Made by a program: the position numbers and the translations under genes | From: Chitinophaga pinensis | GTDB lineage: Bacteria > Bacteroidota > Bacteroidia > Flavobacteriales_D > Crocinitomicaceae | Assembly (NCBI GenBank): GCA_945902745.1 | Contig: CAMDNE010000001.1 | Span: forward strand, 124,001-188,000 | Direction of reading: 5' to 3' | Length of the DNA: 64,000 bases | Shown here: positions 17,530-28,181 of the stretch, piece after piece | Position numbering within the stretch: position 1 is the stretch's first letter | Layout: the number at the start of each line of letters is the position of its first letter | Notes under the pieces: model-generated | Databases searched by the model: none | What the model saw: only the letters and a program-made list of their open reading frames with translations | What the model was told of the DNA's origin: nothing

Positions 17530-17649
17530 TTTATTGTCGTCAGTGATTATAGTGCTGACTCCGCACTTTTTTTGCCTACTCTGATCGGTTTTCGGCAACC
17601 CCGTTTATTTTTTGTTCGTCTGTGTCAAGTTAGCACGTCCCCAAGCATT

Positions 17650-18697: not shown

Positions 18698-19007
18698 AAA
18701 ACACTATATTTAATTTACCTACTCGTTTGGCTTTTCGGTGTCGCCCCGTTTTTTGAGTGGTCGCTGGTCTCCACTTTTGAATTGCAATATTAAGAATTTG
18801 TCAGACAGTGTCGTAAAAATTTTTTGACGGGTTCGTGTCTGGCCGTTGCGTCATTGTCGTTTTATAAACTTGCCCATAACTTATCGCTTAGCCTCACTGC
18901 ACCTAATTTTAAAACAATAACATTATTGATGTTAAATGGTAAGTTCCTTATAAATTTACTATTAACATTAGACTTAACCGATAAATATCGTTTTTAATCT
19001 CTTGTTA
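18698..19007. other. 310-bp gap, module boundary
   Basis: No gene is seen. GCCCATAAC at 18872-18880 is the inverted partner of the box in attC-like site B and marks the putative outer end of that module. Between it and the 17858 gene lies a more GC-rich stretch with an imperfect inverted CAGACA.../...TGTCTGG pair (about 18800-18844). Beyond 18880 the sequence is AT-rich. I could not build a convincing attC palindrome there, which would suit the first cassette of an array. Confidence 0.4.
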
Positions 19008-22440: not shown

Positions 22441-22544
22441 ATCTAGATTGATACATATTGAAAATCATTTTATAAATAAAATAGGTTTTTAAAAAACAAA
22501 TTTAATACATTTGCAACGTCATTTCCACAATCGGTGGATCTAAG

Positions 22545-22668
22545 ATTTATAAAGAAGAGGTGAGAGATAGGCTCGAAGACCCTCTGGCAACCAACTTTAA
22601 GTCCCGATTTATCGGGGTTGGAAAACCGGTGCCAATTCCTAATTCCGAATGTTCGGAAGAATATAAAT
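22545..22668 (+). promoter_or_regulatory. SAM-I (S-box) riboswitch
   Basis: The core AAGAAGAGGTGAGAGATAGG...CTCTGGCAACC and the later GGTGCCAATTCC match the conserved SAM-I aptamer. The closing P1 helix is perfect over 7 bp: ATTTATA (22545-22551) pairs with TATAAAT (22662-22668). A 3' P4 hairpin, TTCCGAA-TG-TTCGGAA, sits at 22643-22658, and an internal CCCGAT/ATCGGG hairpin is present. It precedes metX and hom. A -7 box TACATTTG is at 22506-22513, close upstream. SAM binding should lower expression of methionine synthesis genes. No terminator lies between the aptamer and the leader ORF, so the switching mechanism is not obvious. Confidence 0.92.
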
Positions 22669-22676
22669 AGAAAAAA

Positions 22677-22802
22677 ATGGAGAAGAAACAGTTTTCAGTT
22701 TACCAAATGACACAAAATCCCAATCAGGAGATTTCAGTTTTTAATTCCTTCATCGGAAACAATTTGATGCGTTGTATGTGCTGTTGCTGCATGTGCTGCT
22801 AA
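22677..22802 (+). CDS. Cys/Met-rich leader peptide upstream of metX
   Basis: This 41-codon ORF was not in the track. It starts at ATG 9 nt after the riboswitch P1 helix, behind seven As, and stops at TAA 22800-22802. The N-terminal 30 residues are ordinary (MEKKQFSVYQMTQNPNQEIS). The last eleven read MRCMCCCCMCC, giving seven Cys and three Met codons in eleven. That is hard to explain by chance in this AT-rich DNA and resembles amino-acid-sensing attenuation leaders, where ribosomes stall when charged tRNA is scarce. The sensed residues would be cysteine and methionine, the products of the downstream pathway. Function is inferred. Confidence 0.75.
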   Translation: MEKKQFSVYQMTQNPNQEISVFNSFIGNNLMRCMCCCCMCC

Positions 22803-22827
22803 TTCCATAATTCTTTTAATGGTTTTT

Positions 22828-22854
22828 ATTGCAATCTGAATACTCAGAGGCAAT
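22828..22854 (+). promoter_or_regulatory. Possible attenuator hairpin between leader and metX
   Basis: The sequence ATTGC-AA-TCTGA-ATAC-TCAGA-G-GCAAT can fold into a two-part stem 25 nt after the leader stop. It is followed by TCCTTTTATCAAATTTTTTC, a weak U-rich tract. This could be a terminator controlled by leader translation, but the stem is short and the assignment is tentative. Confidence 0.35.
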
Positions 22855-22889
22855 TCCTTTTATCAAATTTTTTCAATTTCAAATTTATC

Positions 22890-23963
22890 ATGAGTAAAAC
22901 AATAATCTTTAATACTGAAAATAATTTTCAGCTCGAAAGCGGTGAACAAATTCCACAACTTTCAATCGCATACAATACATATGGTACTTACGATCCTCAA
23001 AAAAACAATGTTATTTGGGTGTGTCATGCACTTACGGCAAACAGCGATGTGTTCGATTGGTGGAAAGGTGTTTTTGGCGAAAATGACTTGTTTAATCCTA
23101 ACGATCATTTCATTGTTTGCGCAAATATTCTAGGTTCACATTATGGAACTAGTGGACCCTTAAATACATTTAATGATGACAAACCGCTTTTAGATTTGTT
23201 TCCATTTATCACAACCAGAGACATGGCTCGTGCGCATGAATTATTGCGTCAAGAATTGAAAATCGAAAAAATTCAGTTGTTAATTGGCGCATCTTTAGGT
23301 GGACAACAAGCATTGGAATGGTCAATTGAGCAACCTTCAATCATTGAGAATTTAATCTTGATAGCAACCAATGCGCGTCATTCTGCTTTTGGAATTGCAT
23401 TTAATCAAACGCAACGGTTGGCTTTATTCGCAGATCAAACTTTTGGGAATGGAAATGTAGATGGTGGAAGACATGGATTAATATCTGCACGAGCGATTGC
23501 AATGTTGAGCTACCGATCGTATGATGGTTATGCAAAAACACAGACCAATCCTGGGAATCACACAACAGATGATTTTTTAGCGGCATCGTACCAAGAATAT
23601 CAAGGGGAGAAATTAGCAAAGCGATTCAATGCTTATTCCTATTTGATATTATCGAAAGCGATGGATGCACACAATATCGGAAGAAAACGACCATCGATTG
23701 AAATTGCTTTGCAACAAATAAAGGCTAAAACATTGGTTATTGGAATAGAATCAGATTTGTTATTTCCGATAAAAGAACAAGAGTTTTTAAGCGAATGGAT
23801 TCCAAATGCCTATTTCGGTAAAATAGATTCTGATTTTGGTCACGATGGATTCTTGGTAGAAAACACACAATTAACAGCATTAATCTCGGACTTTTTGCAC
23901 AATGATTTCAAGCAAAATCGTCCAACAATATTTAAAACAACATCAAAAAAAGAACTAGCATGA
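22890..23963 (+). CDS. metX: Homoserine O-acetyltransferase
   Basis: It transfers acetyl from acetyl-CoA to homoserine, the entry step to methionine. The 357-aa alpha/beta hydrolase-fold protein shows the oxyanion region VWVCHALTANSDVFDWW, the nucleophile elbow LLIGASLGGQQALEW, the Asp of the triad in IGIESDLLFP and the His in SDFGHDGFLVE. It is controlled by the upstream SAM-I riboswitch and probably by the leader peptide. It overlaps hom by four bases (ATGA), indicating translational coupling. Acetyl versus succinyl specificity is inferred from family resemblance. Confidence 0.94.
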   Translation: MSKTIIFNTENNFQLESGEQIPQLSIAYNTYGTYDPQKNNVIWVCHALTANSDVFDWWKGVFGENDLFNPNDHFIVCANILGSHYGTSGPLNTFNDDKPLLDLFPFITTRDMARAHELLRQELKIEKIQLLIGASLGGQQALEWSIEQPSIIENLILIATNARHSAFGIAFNQTQRLALFADQTFGNGNVDGGRHGLISARAIAMLSYRSYDGYAKTQTNPGNHTTDDFLAASYQEYQGEKLAKRFNAYSYLILSKAMDAHNIGRKRPSIEIALQQIKAKTLVIGIESDLLFPIKEQEFLSEWIPNAYFGKIDSDFGHDGFLVENTQLTALISDFLHNDFKQNRPTIFKTTSKKELA

Positions 23964-25210
23964 GAAATAAATTAAACATCGGATTATTTGGTTTTGGGGT
24001 AGTAGGAACTGGCCTTTATGAAGTATTGAATAAAAGTAAATTGCTTGAAGCAAGTATTTCTAGAATTGTTGTCAAAGATCCAACGAAGAAAAGATCGATT
24101 GGAACAGAATTGTTCTCCTTCGATAAGAATGACATCTTGAATGATGCAGCAATTAATGTTGTTGTTGAGCTGATCAATGACAGTGAAGCAGCTTTCGAAA
24201 TTGTGAAACAAGCGTTAAAAAGTGGGAAACATGTTGTCTCTGCCAATAAGAAAATGATTGCAGAACACTTTGAAGAATTGATTCAATTGGCAAAAGAAAA
24301 TAATGTTTCTATTCTATACGAAGCAGCTGTTGGTGGTTCAATTCCAATCATTCGGAATTTGGAAGAATATTACAACAATGATTCTTTGTCTTCTGTTCAA
24401 GGTATAGTGAATGGAACAACAAATTATATTTTAACACAGTCAAATTTTGGTGTTTCTTATCAAGATGCTTTAAAGAAAGCCACTGAATTAGGATTTGCAG
24501 AAATAGATCCAACATTAGATGTCGATGGTTTTGATTCGAAATTCAAATTGGTTTTATTGATAAAACATGCCTTTGGATTAATTGTAGAACCAAAAAAAGT
24601 ATTCAATTATGGCATTAGAAACATTAAACCACAGGATGTGAAATATGCTGGTGAAAAAGGATTTAGAATTAAATTGTTTTCTCGCGCCGAAAAGTTGAAT
24701 GATGACATTGTGGGGTTCGTTGCGCCGCACTTTGTCAAAAATGATCATTTTGCATATCAAGTGGATAACGAGTTTAACGCTGTTGTAGTGGAAGCGTTGT
24801 TTTCAGATAAACAATTGTTCATAGGAAAAGGGGCAGGGAGCTACCCAACGGCAAGTGCTGTTCTTTCAGATATTTCGGCACTTCAATTTGATTATCAATA
24901 TGAATATAGAAAATCGACAGAACATGTTGCCGCTGATTTGGAGGATGATTTTTTCTTAAAAGTATACATCGGTTCTGAATTTATTGAATCGATCAATGAA
25001 ATTCCTTTTTATAGAATTGATGAGGTGTATCAAGGAGGTGAATACAATTATCAAACAGGTTGGGTGAGATTTAGTGACATAAAATCCTTTGATTTAAATG
25101 AACTGAAAGATTTATCCTTAATCGTGCTTCCTGAACCATTTGTTGCTTCCAATCAAGTTGACAAATTGAAAAGGGAACGCATTCAATATTTATCAGAAAT
25201 AGAAAATTAA
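23960..25210 (+). CDS. hom: Homoserine dehydrogenase
   Basis: It reduces aspartate semialdehyde to homoserine with NAD(P)H, supplying MetX. The 416-aa protein begins with the cofactor motif LNIGLFGFGVVGTGLYEVL. It continues with VVSANKKMIAEH, the conserved GGSIPIIRNLEEYY and GIVNGTTNYILT, and ELGFAEIDPTLDVDGFDSKFKL with the catalytic Asp/Lys region. After about residue 320 the C-terminus does not look like a classical ACT domain, so feedback inhibition by threonine is uncertain. It is coupled to metX by a 4-bp overlap and followed by permease genes 4 bp downstream. Confidence 0.94.
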   Translation: MRNKLNIGLFGFGVVGTGLYEVLNKSKLLEASISRIVVKDPTKKRSIGTELFSFDKNDILNDAAINVVVELINDSEAAFEIVKQALKSGKHVVSANKKMIAEHFEELIQLAKENNVSILYEAAVGGSIPIIRNLEEYYNNDSLSSVQGIVNGTTNYILTQSNFGVSYQDALKKATELGFAEIDPTLDVDGFDSKFKLVLLIKHAFGLIVEPKKVFNYGIRNIKPQDVKYAGEKGFRIKLFSRAEKLNDDIVGFVAPHFVKNDHFAYQVDNEFNAVVVEALFSDKQLFIGKGAGSYPTASAVLSDISALQFDYQYEYRKSTEHVAADLEDDFFLKVYIGSEFIESINEIPFYRIDEVYQGGEYNYQTGWVRFSDIKSFDLNELKDLSLIVLPEPFVASNQVDKLKRERIQYLSEIEN

Positions 25211-25214
25211 AAAA

Positions 25215-25706
25215 ATGAATACACCTTTAGCATGGTATTTTGCAGGCCCGTTAATTGGACTGATTGTACCTTTATTATTGATTTTACGTGAAAAACAATT
25301 CGGAATTTCATCGAGTTACCGTTTCATTGGAGCGACTTTATTACCGAAGATTAAGTATTTCAATTATTCAAAAGAACAAGACCGTTGGCAAATTCACTTT
25401 GCACTGGGATTGATTCTTTCTGGATTTGCAGCATTTCAACTATTTGGAGCGTTTGATAAAGTTGTGATTCAACCAGTATTAGATTACGAAAAAGCAGCAG
25501 TTACTATTTACGATGTGAAAAATGGCTTACAATTCTTCTTAGGTGGAATTTTAGTTGGATTTGGAGCACGTTATGCAAACGGATGCACGGCTGGACATTG
25601 TATAATGGACGTTTCACAATTTGCTACAAGTTCAATTATTGCCACCGTTTCCTTTTTTGTCGGAGGATTAATCGGCTCGCTATTTATCAATCCAATTATT
25701 TTTTAA
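25215..25706 (+). CDS. YeeE/YedE half-transporter (thiosulfate-type), first subunit
   Basis: The 163-aa membrane protein has four or five hydrophobic segments and the YeeE/YedE signature GGILVGFGARYANGCTAGHCI, whose Cys residues line the sulfur path in the full-length thiosulfate transporter. At about half the length of E. coli YeeE, it probably pairs with the next gene. It lies 4 bp after hom in the methionine operon, which suits import of a reduced sulfur compound (thiosulfate or similar) for homocysteine synthesis. The substrate is inferred from family and context. Confidence 0.85.
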   Translation: MNTPLAWYFAGPLIGLIVPLLLILREKQFGISSSYRFIGATLLPKIKYFNYSKEQDRWQIHFALGLILSGFAAFQLFGAFDKVVIQPVLDYEKAAVTIYDVKNGLQFFLGGILVGFGARYANGCTAGHCIMDVSQFATSSIIATVSFFVGGLIGSLFINPIIF

Positions 25707-25707
25707 G

Positions 25708-26127
25708 ATGTTTAAATTTATCATTACACTACTTTTAGGATTCGCTTTCGGATTAATTCTATTGGCTTCTCAAGCATTTTCATGGTTCCGAATTCAAGAA
25801 ATGTTTCACTTCCAATCGTTTCACATGTTTGGGTTACTTTTTTCTGCCATTGGAACGTCTGCAGTGTTCTTGTTTATTATCAAAAGGAAGAAAATTAAAT
25901 CAGCGCAAGGAAATCAAATTGAAGTCAAACCAAAGAAACTGGAATTAAAAGCCAACATTATTGGCGGACTTATTTTTGGACTTGGATGGTCAATTTCTGG
26001 CGCTTGTTCAGCCCCAGTTTATATTCTAGTTGGACTTCATTGGCAAATAGGATTGATTCTATTGGCTGGTGCATTTACGGGAACAGTTATATTTGGATTG
26101 CTAAAAGGAAAAAATGGACTACTTTGA
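25708..26127 (+). CDS. YeeE/YedE half-transporter (DUF6691-like), second subunit
   Basis: The 139-aa membrane protein has hydrophobic segments at both ends, a short basic loop (KRKKIKSAQGNQIEVKPKK), and the second-half signature GGLIFGLGWSISGACSAPVYILVG. The Cys in SGACSAP corresponds to the conserved cysteine of the family's second repeat. Its ATG follows the previous stop by one base, so the pair is co-translated. The operon appears to end in the 74-bp repeat array that follows. Confidence 0.82.
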   Translation: MFKFIITLLLGFAFGLILLASQAFSWFRIQEMFHFQSFHMFGLLFSAIGTSAVFLFIIKRKKIKSAQGNQIEVKPKKLELKANIIGGLIFGLGWSISGACSAPVYILVGLHWQIGLILLAGAFTGTVIFGLLKGKNGLL

Positions 26128-26583: not shown

Positions 26584-26997
26584 ATGAAGTTAAAGCTGAA
26601 AAGAATCGAAGCGCCATTTGTTCTTGAATTGAATAATGAAAATGGAAGTACTGTAATAATCGATGCAAATCCATCTATCGGAGGTAAAGGTTTGGGATTT
26701 CGACCAATGGAATTGTTAGCGGGTTCGTTGGCAAGTTGCGCCTCAATCGATGTAATTTCAATTTTGAAAAAGCAACGCATTGAACTTGCTTCTTATACGA
26801 TAGATATTGTTGCAAAACGATCTGAAGGTGTTCCATCTCCATTTGAAAGCATTCAGCTGAATTTTGAATTTGATAATTCAGTTGATTTGGAGAAAGCAAA
26901 AAAAGCCATCGATTTATCGTTAGAGAAATACTGCTCAGTTTCGGCCAGTTTAAAGGATGAAATAACCATTACTTATTCAATCAATTCAAATTTGTAA
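26584..26997 (+). CDS. OsmC family protein
   Basis: The 137-aa protein has the OsmC/YhfA-type pattern GFRPMELLAGSLASCASIDVISILKKQRIEL with the first reactive Cys (about residue 56), and LEKYCSVSASLKDEITITY with the second. In this fold the pair reduces peroxides or binds persulfide. It lies 17 bp before the MetZ-type gene and inside the sulfur cluster. That placement would suit a role in handling reactive sulfur or peroxide during sulfur assimilation, but this is inferred from position only. Confidence 0.88.
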   Translation: MKLKLKRIEAPFVLELNNENGSTVIIDANPSIGGKGLGFRPMELLAGSLASCASIDVISILKKQRIELASYTIDIVAKRSEGVPSPFESIQLNFEFDNSVDLEKAKKAIDLSLEKYCSVSASLKDEITITYSINSNL

Positions 26998-27014
26998 AAC
27001 CCATTTCCTTGCTT

Positions 27015-28181
27015 ATGAAAAAAGAAACAGAATCAATTCGAATTCAGTCAAAAAAATCTTCGTTTAACGAACATTCGACGCCTTTATATCTTACAAGTAG
27101 CTATGTTTTTGAAGATGCGGAAGACATGCGAGCACAATTTGCGGAAGAAAAGGAAGGAGAAATTTACTCGCGTTACGCCAATCCAAATGTGCAAGAGTTC
27201 ATTGATAAAATGGCCAACTTAGAAAACGCAGAAGGTGGATGGGCAACAGCCTCGGGAATGGCAGCAGTTTTTTCTTTTTTTGGTGCGTTATTATCATCTG
27301 GTGATCACATTGTTTCCGCTCGATCGGTGTTCGGTTCAACGCATCGCTTGTTCACAGAGATTTTACCGAAATGGGGAATTACAACATCATATGTTGATTT
27401 TGATGATTATGAAGGTTATGAAAATGCGATTACTGCCTCGACAAAAATTCTTTATTTAGAAACACCAAGTAATCCAGGATTGGATATCATTGACCTTAAA
27501 AAAGTTGCTGAAATTTGCAAAAGGAAGCAAATTCTTTTTGCAGTTGACAATTGTTTTGCGACACCAATAATTCAGCGCCCATTGGATTTTGGTGCCGATG
27601 TTTCGATTCATTCAGCTACAAAATACATTGATGGTCAAGGCAGAACAATGGGAGGAATAATACTTTCTTCGTCTGAGATTATTGAAAAGATTAAAGCTTT
27701 CGCCCGCCACACTGGTCCAGCACTGAGTCCTTTCAACGCTTGGGTATTGTCAAAATCTTTAGAAACATTAGATGTACGCATGGAACGCCATTGTAAAAAT
27801 GCACTAGAAATAGCAAAAAGATTGGAATGTCATCCAGCTATTTCATGGGTGAAATATCCGTTTTTGCCTTCTCATCCACAATATAAAATTGCCACCGAAC
27901 AAATGTCGAGTGGTGGTGGAATCGTTTCTTTTGAATTAAAAAATGGTTTGTCTGCCGGAAAGAATTTTTTAGACAGTTTAAAACTATTTTCCTTAACAGC
28001 AAATTTGGGAGATACGAGAAGCATTGCTACACATCCAGCATCCACAACCCATTCTAAACTAACGCAAGAGCAAAGGACGGATGTTGGCATCAGTGATGGA
28101 TTGGTTCGACTTTCAATCGGCTTAGAGCATGTTGAAGATATTTGGGCTGATTTAATTGGCGCTTTGGAAAAGGCTAATTGA
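27015..28181 (+). CDS. metZ: MetZ-type O-acyl-homoserine sulfhydrylase
   Basis: This PLP enzyme of the Cys/Met metabolism family joins sulfide to activated homoserine to give homocysteine. I prefer ATG 27015 (MKKETESIRIQ) over 27009. It is 388 aa, with STPLYLTSSYVFEDAEDM, YSRYANPNVQEF, ATASGMAAVFSFF, the Asp pocket LFAVDNCFATP, the PLP lysine in VSIHSATKYIDGQG (about residue 205) and SIGLEHVEDIWADL. The order of motifs is closest to MetZ. With MetX nearby the substrate is probably O-acetylhomoserine, although MetZ is named for the succinyl ester. The exact substrate cannot be read from sequence. Confidence 0.88.
   Translation: MKKETESIRIQSKKSSFNEHSTPLYLTSSYVFEDAEDMRAQFAEEKEGEIYSRYANPNVQEFIDKMANLENAEGGWATASGMAAVFSFFGALLSSGDHIVSARSVFGSTHRLFTEILPKWGITTSYVDFDDYEGYENAITASTKILYLETPSNPGLDIIDLKKVAEICKRKQILFAVDNCFATPIIQRPLDFGADVSIHSATKYIDGQGRTMGGIILSSSEIIEKIKAFARHTGPALSPFNAWVLSKSLETLDVRMERHCKNALEIAKRLECHPAISWVKYPFLPSHPQYKIATEQMSSGGGIVSFELKNGLSAGKNFLDSLKLFSLTANLGDTRSIATHPASTTHSKLTQEQRTDVGISDGLVRLSIGLEHVEDIWADLIGALEKAN

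Follow-up and report, generated by a model that had tools for sequence, protein, structure and literature searches.

Riboswitches of the SAM-I (S-box) class are known to control either a terminator or the start of the gene itself. In the locus described here, situated before metX in the window (the whole analysed stretch of 64,000 nucleotides), the aptamer matches the SAM-I family (RF00162) over its full length, but it is followed by a leader ORF that contains control codons. In Clostridium, the ubiGmccBA operon is reportedly controlled by a Cys T-box together with an S-box, the latter lying on an antisense transcript. There, SAM and the charging of Cys-tRNA jointly control a single sulfur operon at the Met/Cys interface, as proposed here, but Cys is sensed by the T-box RNA, with no leader peptide, and the two elements are not in series. 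The mgtA/mgtL leader of Salmonella and E. coli is of the riboswitch type and contains a small ORF. The same is the case with the odc1 motif (PMC8632094). Both thus combine an RNA element and a small ORF in one leader; they differ from the present locus in their ligands and codons and in having neither a SAM aptamer nor a Cys run.

Leaders with runs of Cys codons have been described from Actinobacteria, namely from the cys operons of Mycobacterium and Propionibacterium acnes and from cbs of Bifidobacterium longum (PMC1262725). Like the leader of the window, these are short ORFs with the Cys run near the stop, located before sulfur genes and without obvious terminators, but they belong to another phylum, precede cys or cbs genes instead of metX/metY, and no riboswitch has been described with them (PMC1262725). 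In Rhodobacterales, uORFC-8-2 before cysS similarly combines Cys codons in an upstream ORF with hairpins, and has been read as ribosome-mediated attenuation (PMC8632094). It differs in that its Cys codons are a tandem pair at about positions 14-15, its consensus includes an intrinsic terminator, it lacks a riboswitch, and its target is a tRNA synthetase gene (PMC8632094). Leader-peptide attenuation has also been suspected in Flavobacterium psychrophilum (PMC9723704), which suggests ribosome-mediated attenuation within the class studied here; the passages of that report concerned with it name neither a SAM riboswitch nor a Cys leader.

The preliminary description of the locus knew of no described case in Bacteroidetes. 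Also in our literature search, in which subscription journals were sparsely covered, no publication was found that describes a Cys/Met leader in series with a SAM-I riboswitch. Each half of the arrangement has precedents, while the in-series pair of SAM-I and Cys leader is apparently unreported within the literature searched. We consider it likely that the region is a two-input mRNA leader, with a SAM-I aptamer and a sensor of Cys (probably also Met) tRNA charging in series. If so, many natural sequences would repeat a design in which a single mRNA carries a riboswitch and, in series with it, a ribosome-based sensor.

Layout of the leader region before metX

The following elements were located between the promoter-like element and metX.

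22506-22513, + strand: promoter-like element TACATTTG, from a pattern search with the Bacteroidota -7 element TAnnTTTG; weak, the motif being short
22544-22669, + strand: SAM-I riboswitch aptamer, Rfam RF00162, 66.1 bits (gathering score 44.4)
22545-22551 with 22662-22668, + strand: P1 helix of the SAM-I aptamer, from the fold of 22540-22700
22677-22802, + strand: leader ORF of 41 codons, MEKKQFSVYQMTQNPNQEISVFNSFIGNNLMRCMCCCCMCC and stop, with homologous leaders in two other genomes (G077 and G080)
22761-22769 with 22861-22869, + strand: long-range helix of 9 bp, minimum-energy fold
22767-22799, + strand: control-codon tail MRCMCCCCMCC, with 7 Cys and 3 Met in 11 codons
22774-22796, + strand: hairpin within the Cys tail (22774-22781 with 22789-22796), minimum-energy fold
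22828-22854, + strand: hairpin between the leader stop and metX, followed by UCCUUUUAUC, fold of -9.0 kcal/mol

The preliminary description had named a clear SAM-I aptamer, a 41-codon ORF ending in MRCMCCCCMCC with 7 Cys and 3 Met among its last 11 codons, and a short hairpin at 22828-22854. The Rfam score, the translation of 22677-22802 and the fold agree with it in these respects. It had also placed the ORF start 9 nt past the closing helix; the adjacency was confirmed, and the distance from the end of the P1 3' strand (22668) to the leader ATG (22677) was measured as 8 nt. The 9 bp long-range helix was absent from that description.

The leader is a short ORF with codons for the amino acids of the pathway near its stop (22800-22802), which follows the tail directly. 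The leader peptide had no match in Pfam at E 10, and in NCBIfam one sub-threshold match only, to a relative. When compared with its nearest relative (G077), the leader showed three synonymous and no replacement changes in the Cys codons, and one and six, respectively, in the other codons.

The promoter-like element, which follows the -7 consensus TAnnTTTG given for Bacteroidota in PMC9723704, sits 30 nt upstream of the aptamer. No further match to this pattern was found on the + strand from the aptamer to metX, the motif being short and frequent by chance. No T-box was detected by Rfam upstream of metX, and in the whole window only SAM and two DUF805-type families reached their gathering scores. 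The latter two are small Bacteroidota RNA motifs on the - strand, DUF805 at 18712-18779 (82.2 bits) and DUF805b at 17573-17605 (38.5 bits).

Proposed control and RNA pairing behind the leader

According to the proposed mechanism, binding of SAM would close P1, about 8 nt from the leader AUG, and the leader would not be translated. At low SAM, a ribosome would enter the leader and reach the Cys/Met codons that precede the stop. With poor charging of Cys-tRNA, and probably also of Met-tRNA, the ribosome would stall in the tail and cover both the tail and the stop codon, which would otherwise be free to pair with downstream RNA; the helix choice before metX would shift, and metX/metY would be expressed. 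With enough charged Cys-tRNA, the ribosome would run to the stop and leave. High SAM or ample charged Cys-tRNA would then give the OFF form, most likely transcription termination. The block of leader initiation by SAM is suggested by the fixed spacing and by the leaderless cases, the stalling by the selection on the codons (both described below), and the sign, starvation switching expression on, by the known attenuators. Somewhat more cautiously, we favour the view that the riboswitch gates the reading of a translated tRNA-charging sensor and not the gene, that the output of the homocysteine branch depends on Cys/Met charging, that the arrangement is old and widespread in Bacteroidia, and that metH is under SAM only.

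In the window locus, the region 22755-22889 folded better than all 200 of 200 shuffled sequences (-29.9 vs -21.4 kcal/mol, z -3.06). The 5' arm of the long-range helix is formed by the leader codons that immediately precede the Cys tail, the 3' arm is followed by a U run (22870-22873), and this helix would be open whenever a ribosome occupies the tail. The same helix was also predicted in the G077 locus (L004).

Across the collected loci, the region behind the stop was more folded than shuffled sequences, with a mean z of -1.27 (n = 78), or -2.14 when the tail was included. The stop-codon region paired with the RNA 9-75 nt further on beyond the level of the shuffles (z -0.64 ± 0.15), while an upstream control segment did not (0.07 ± 0.12). 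Competing helices, tail with segment 2 and segment 2 with segment 3, reached p ≤ 0.05 in 35% of the loci compared to 18% with the control segment. The pairing was clearest in the metY group (L044, L050, L089, L124 and L125), where the tail:segment 2 helices had energies of -19 to -29 and the folds behind the stop of -13 to -18 kcal/mol. In this group, compared by eye among five sequences, the tail ATGCACTGC of L089 stands against ATGTGTTGC of L050, and with GGTGCA in place of GGCACA in segment 2 the pairing is kept. RNAalifold found no common structure in mixed groups, and no other credible Rfam elements were present behind the leaders.

Termination is the readout that we infer, with a Rho-dependent or a translational readout as the alternative. 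It is rather unlikely, though conceivable, that the same two sensors work through Rho-dependent termination or metX translation, or that stalling means off, sparing sulfide for Cys. The reversed sign conflicts with the known amino-acid leaders, which switch genes on in starvation, and also with the occurrence of leaders before cysH operons, where a shut-off in Cys shortage would make little sense. In favour of a different readout, the terminator signal behind the leaders is weak: canonical intrinsic terminators of ≤ -9 kcal/mol were found in 37% of the loci vs 20% in shuffles, a modest enrichment, and a canonical terminator was not adopted as the common readout. Moreover, competing helices near the gene start fit either readout, and for the Cys leaders of Mycobacterium, where no terminator was seen either, Rho has been proposed by the authors (PMC1262725). 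On the other hand, strong hairpins, each with a U run, start in the last Cys codons or the stop at three loci (L039, L109 and L110), as expected if termination is the readout.

Recurrence in Bacteroidia and selection on the Cys codons

When about 85,000 species genomes were searched blindly for the tail pattern CCCCMC(C/W)-stop, eight loci were found, seven of them directly behind a SAM-I aptamer, which excludes a chance origin of the tail. Three of the seven precede metX (L045, L046 and L051), three metY (L044, L049 of Imperialibacter, and L050), and one (L048, in G080) a decayed sulfhydrylase gene. The eighth locus, in an archaeal record, looks like a chance match.

The leader was found in just three of 240 family genomes with the 41-aa protein as the query, and a leader profile found it in just two of 395 class genomes. 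Such searches miss most leaders because the peptide body is not conserved, and therefore a wider pattern was used, consisting of the SAM-I J3/4-P4 region, an ATG and then three Cys codons with no frame demanded. It matched in 39 of the 395 class genomes and 40 of the 240 family genomes, compared to a single match in each set with the reversed pattern. About 30 of the 39 class matches were SAM-I loci by inspection, distributed among 11 family groups, and Rfam found SAM-I in all 18 of the 18 other leader loci tested. In a phylum sample of 327 genomes the pattern matched ten times; the two matches from outside the class (G742 and G635) were unlike SAM-I, judged by the matched sequence, and there was no sign of the SAM-I and Cys leader pair outside Bacteroidia in this sample.

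Altogether 78 distinct leaders behind SAM-I were collected, from at least 11 families of the class Bacteroidia. Lack of conservation of the frame or of the Cys/Met codons in relatives had been named beforehand as the observation that would speak against a leader; instead, members throughout the class have the ORF, located within a few nt of P1 and rich in Cys at its end. Within the genus the Cys ends of metX loci differ (SMCCMCCCCCMC, MCMGLMCCCCCCCMSI and LMCSSCCIC), so that it is the composition and not the exact sequence that is kept. Cys makes up 42.5% and Met 13.4% of the last 14 residues, compared to 0.5% and 0.9% in the remainder of the peptide (78 leaders), the Cys figure being partly due to the selection of Cys runs by the pattern, the Met figure not. 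In 15 close pairs, the Cys sites showed 16 synonymous and 11 replacement changes, the other sites 39 and 159 (p 4e-5). The Cys codons have thus been retained through synonymous change, as looked for in the preliminary description, while the peptide body drifts, which a control-codon leader predicts, unlike a folded or metal-binding peptide. The evidence for the leader ORF and for its Cys codons is good. Of the earlier suggestion of both Cys and Met sensing, the Cys part is supported; Met is less secure, being enriched in the tails, yet with some of its codons lying in the tail hairpin. If the arrangement is as proposed, many 5' regions of Bacteroidota labelled just 'SAM riboswitch' would need reannotation.

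These data also bear on two further explanations. Cys/Met clusters of other proteins bind Cu, Zn or Fe-S, and the peptide itself might accordingly be the sensor or the product, either as a metal- or redox-binding Cys/Met-rich micro-protein or as a nascent chain with sequence-specific arrest. This we regard as highly improbable, since the leaders differ freely in how many Cys they have and in what order but keep their composition and their position before the stop, the remaining peptide is barely constrained, the family databases gave next to no match, and sulfur genes nearly always follow, with no Cys-rich leader before metH. Even less credible is an ORF without a function of its own, with RNA alone mattering or a simple TGT/TGC repeat having expanded: such runs can slip and expand, and part of the tail does form a hairpin, but in the genuine SAM-I loci collected the Cys run shares the frame of the ATG and is near the stop although the pattern required neither, both Cys codons occur intermixed (248 TGT, 225 TGC), synonymous turnover is seen at the Cys sites, and metH again lacks the Cys leader.

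Genes behind the leader

The control-codon leader is followed in the window by the following genes.

22890-23963, + strand: metX, homoserine O-acetyltransferase (TIGR01392, 320 bits, under the cut-off of 500; best family)
23960-25210, + strand: homoserine dehydrogenase (NF004976, 335 bits, above the cut-off)
25215-25706 and 25708-26127, + strand: two adjoining genes that together correspond to a thiosulfate/sulfur transporter of the TsuA/YeeE type, one half each (NF052577, weak at 36 and 32 bits)
26584-26997, + strand: OsmC-family protein (NF008009, 63 bits, under the cut-off)
27009-28181, + strand: metZ-like O-succinyl/acetylhomoserine sulfhydrylase (NF006003, 520 bits, cut-off 522)

Judged from these family matches, the operon would serve homocysteine synthesis and, probably, sulfur import. 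The PALP family is represented in the genome of the window only by a cystathionine beta-synthase-like protein, IlvA and a D-cysteine-desulfhydrase-like protein; apart from the first of these, no CysK-type synthase was found in this genome, and cystathionine lyase/synthase-type enzymes are also present. This set of enzymes suggests that Cys is probably made from homocysteine, which would then be the point where the routes to Met/SAM and, probably, Cys divide. Two-input control suits homocysteine synthesis because homocysteine feeds both SAM and Cys, and the proposed mechanism, if true, would explain the balance of homocysteine between Met/SAM and Cys in these bacteria. An exclusive origin of Cys from homocysteine in the leader genomes was rejected as a general rule: a CysE-like protein (>150 bits, none over the curated cut-off) was present in 14 of 50 leader genomes and in none of 30 genomes without a detected leader. 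The branch-point rationale is therefore not universal but may hold for the genome of the window.

In an unconditioned survey, every SAM-I match in 40 complete family genomes was recorded, and 69 of the 70 matches were classified. The 'not SAM' flags that a narrow regular expression had given among the pattern matches were disregarded for metH loci. A Cys-rich leader was present in 19 of the 26 SAM-I loci before metX/metY and in none of the 40 before metH (Fisher p 4e-11, relatedness ignored). Also in the genome of the window, a second SAM-I stands before metH without a leader. metH makes Met only and reads SAM only, and if the proposal is true, metH without the leader and metX/metY with it form a built-in control. 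The two-signal reading put forward at the outset, SAM together with Cys/Met charging, gains support from this distribution, in which the carriers appear to be metX/metY and cysH and not metH.

The seven metX/metY cases without a Cys-rich leader comprised three with a leader of one or two Cys and four (L166 and three others) without any. The leader ATG was mostly located 6-10 nt past the aptamer in the survey. In the genomes G024, G026 and G030, which have no leader, the metX ATG itself lies 8 nt past the aptamer, which suggests that P1 acts on whatever ORF start follows it. If the proposal is true, P1 beside the start of a leader ORF would be an expression platform of SAM-I riboswitches in Bacteroidota.

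The aptamers before metX/metY had a mean length of 125 nt and tended to lower scores, those before metH a length of 110 nt (40 family genomes); because of these differences in length and score, they may be separate aptamer lineages.

In three loci (L064, L076 and L077), SAM-I and a pure-Cys leader (CCCCCCC) precede cysH-like genes, which are followed by sulfite-reductase-like, OsmC-like or metZ-like genes (names read from the sequence). The arrangement thus recurs at genes of sulfate assimilation, and the pure Cys ends before cysH fit Cys as the main signal.

Three loci (L170, L175 and L177, in G125, G129 and G064) have kept the leader ORF but lost most of the Cys codons, and a fourth (L180, in G150) has a decayed, shortened leader with metX not adjacent; judged from the sequences, natural loss of the Cys input is possible in these four. 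In G080, SAM-I and the Cys leader (L005 / L048) stand before a mere 3' remnant of a metZ-type gene, and since no metX was found in that genome, the leader is orphaned.

A second small ORF of 73-79 aa is located between the Cys leader and metX/metY in seven loci of one group (f43; L053-L057, L059 and L060). It lies 109-161 nt past the leader stop, has the conserved pattern …NLL…F…A.Y…GGHLP.Y…RLV..VNLLT… and matched no Pfam family above the cut-off. In two loci (L178 and L179, in G024 and G030), a very short SAM-I leader, MKKRMCCCCYEK and stop, precedes a putative amino-acid dehydrogenase, as read from the sequence.
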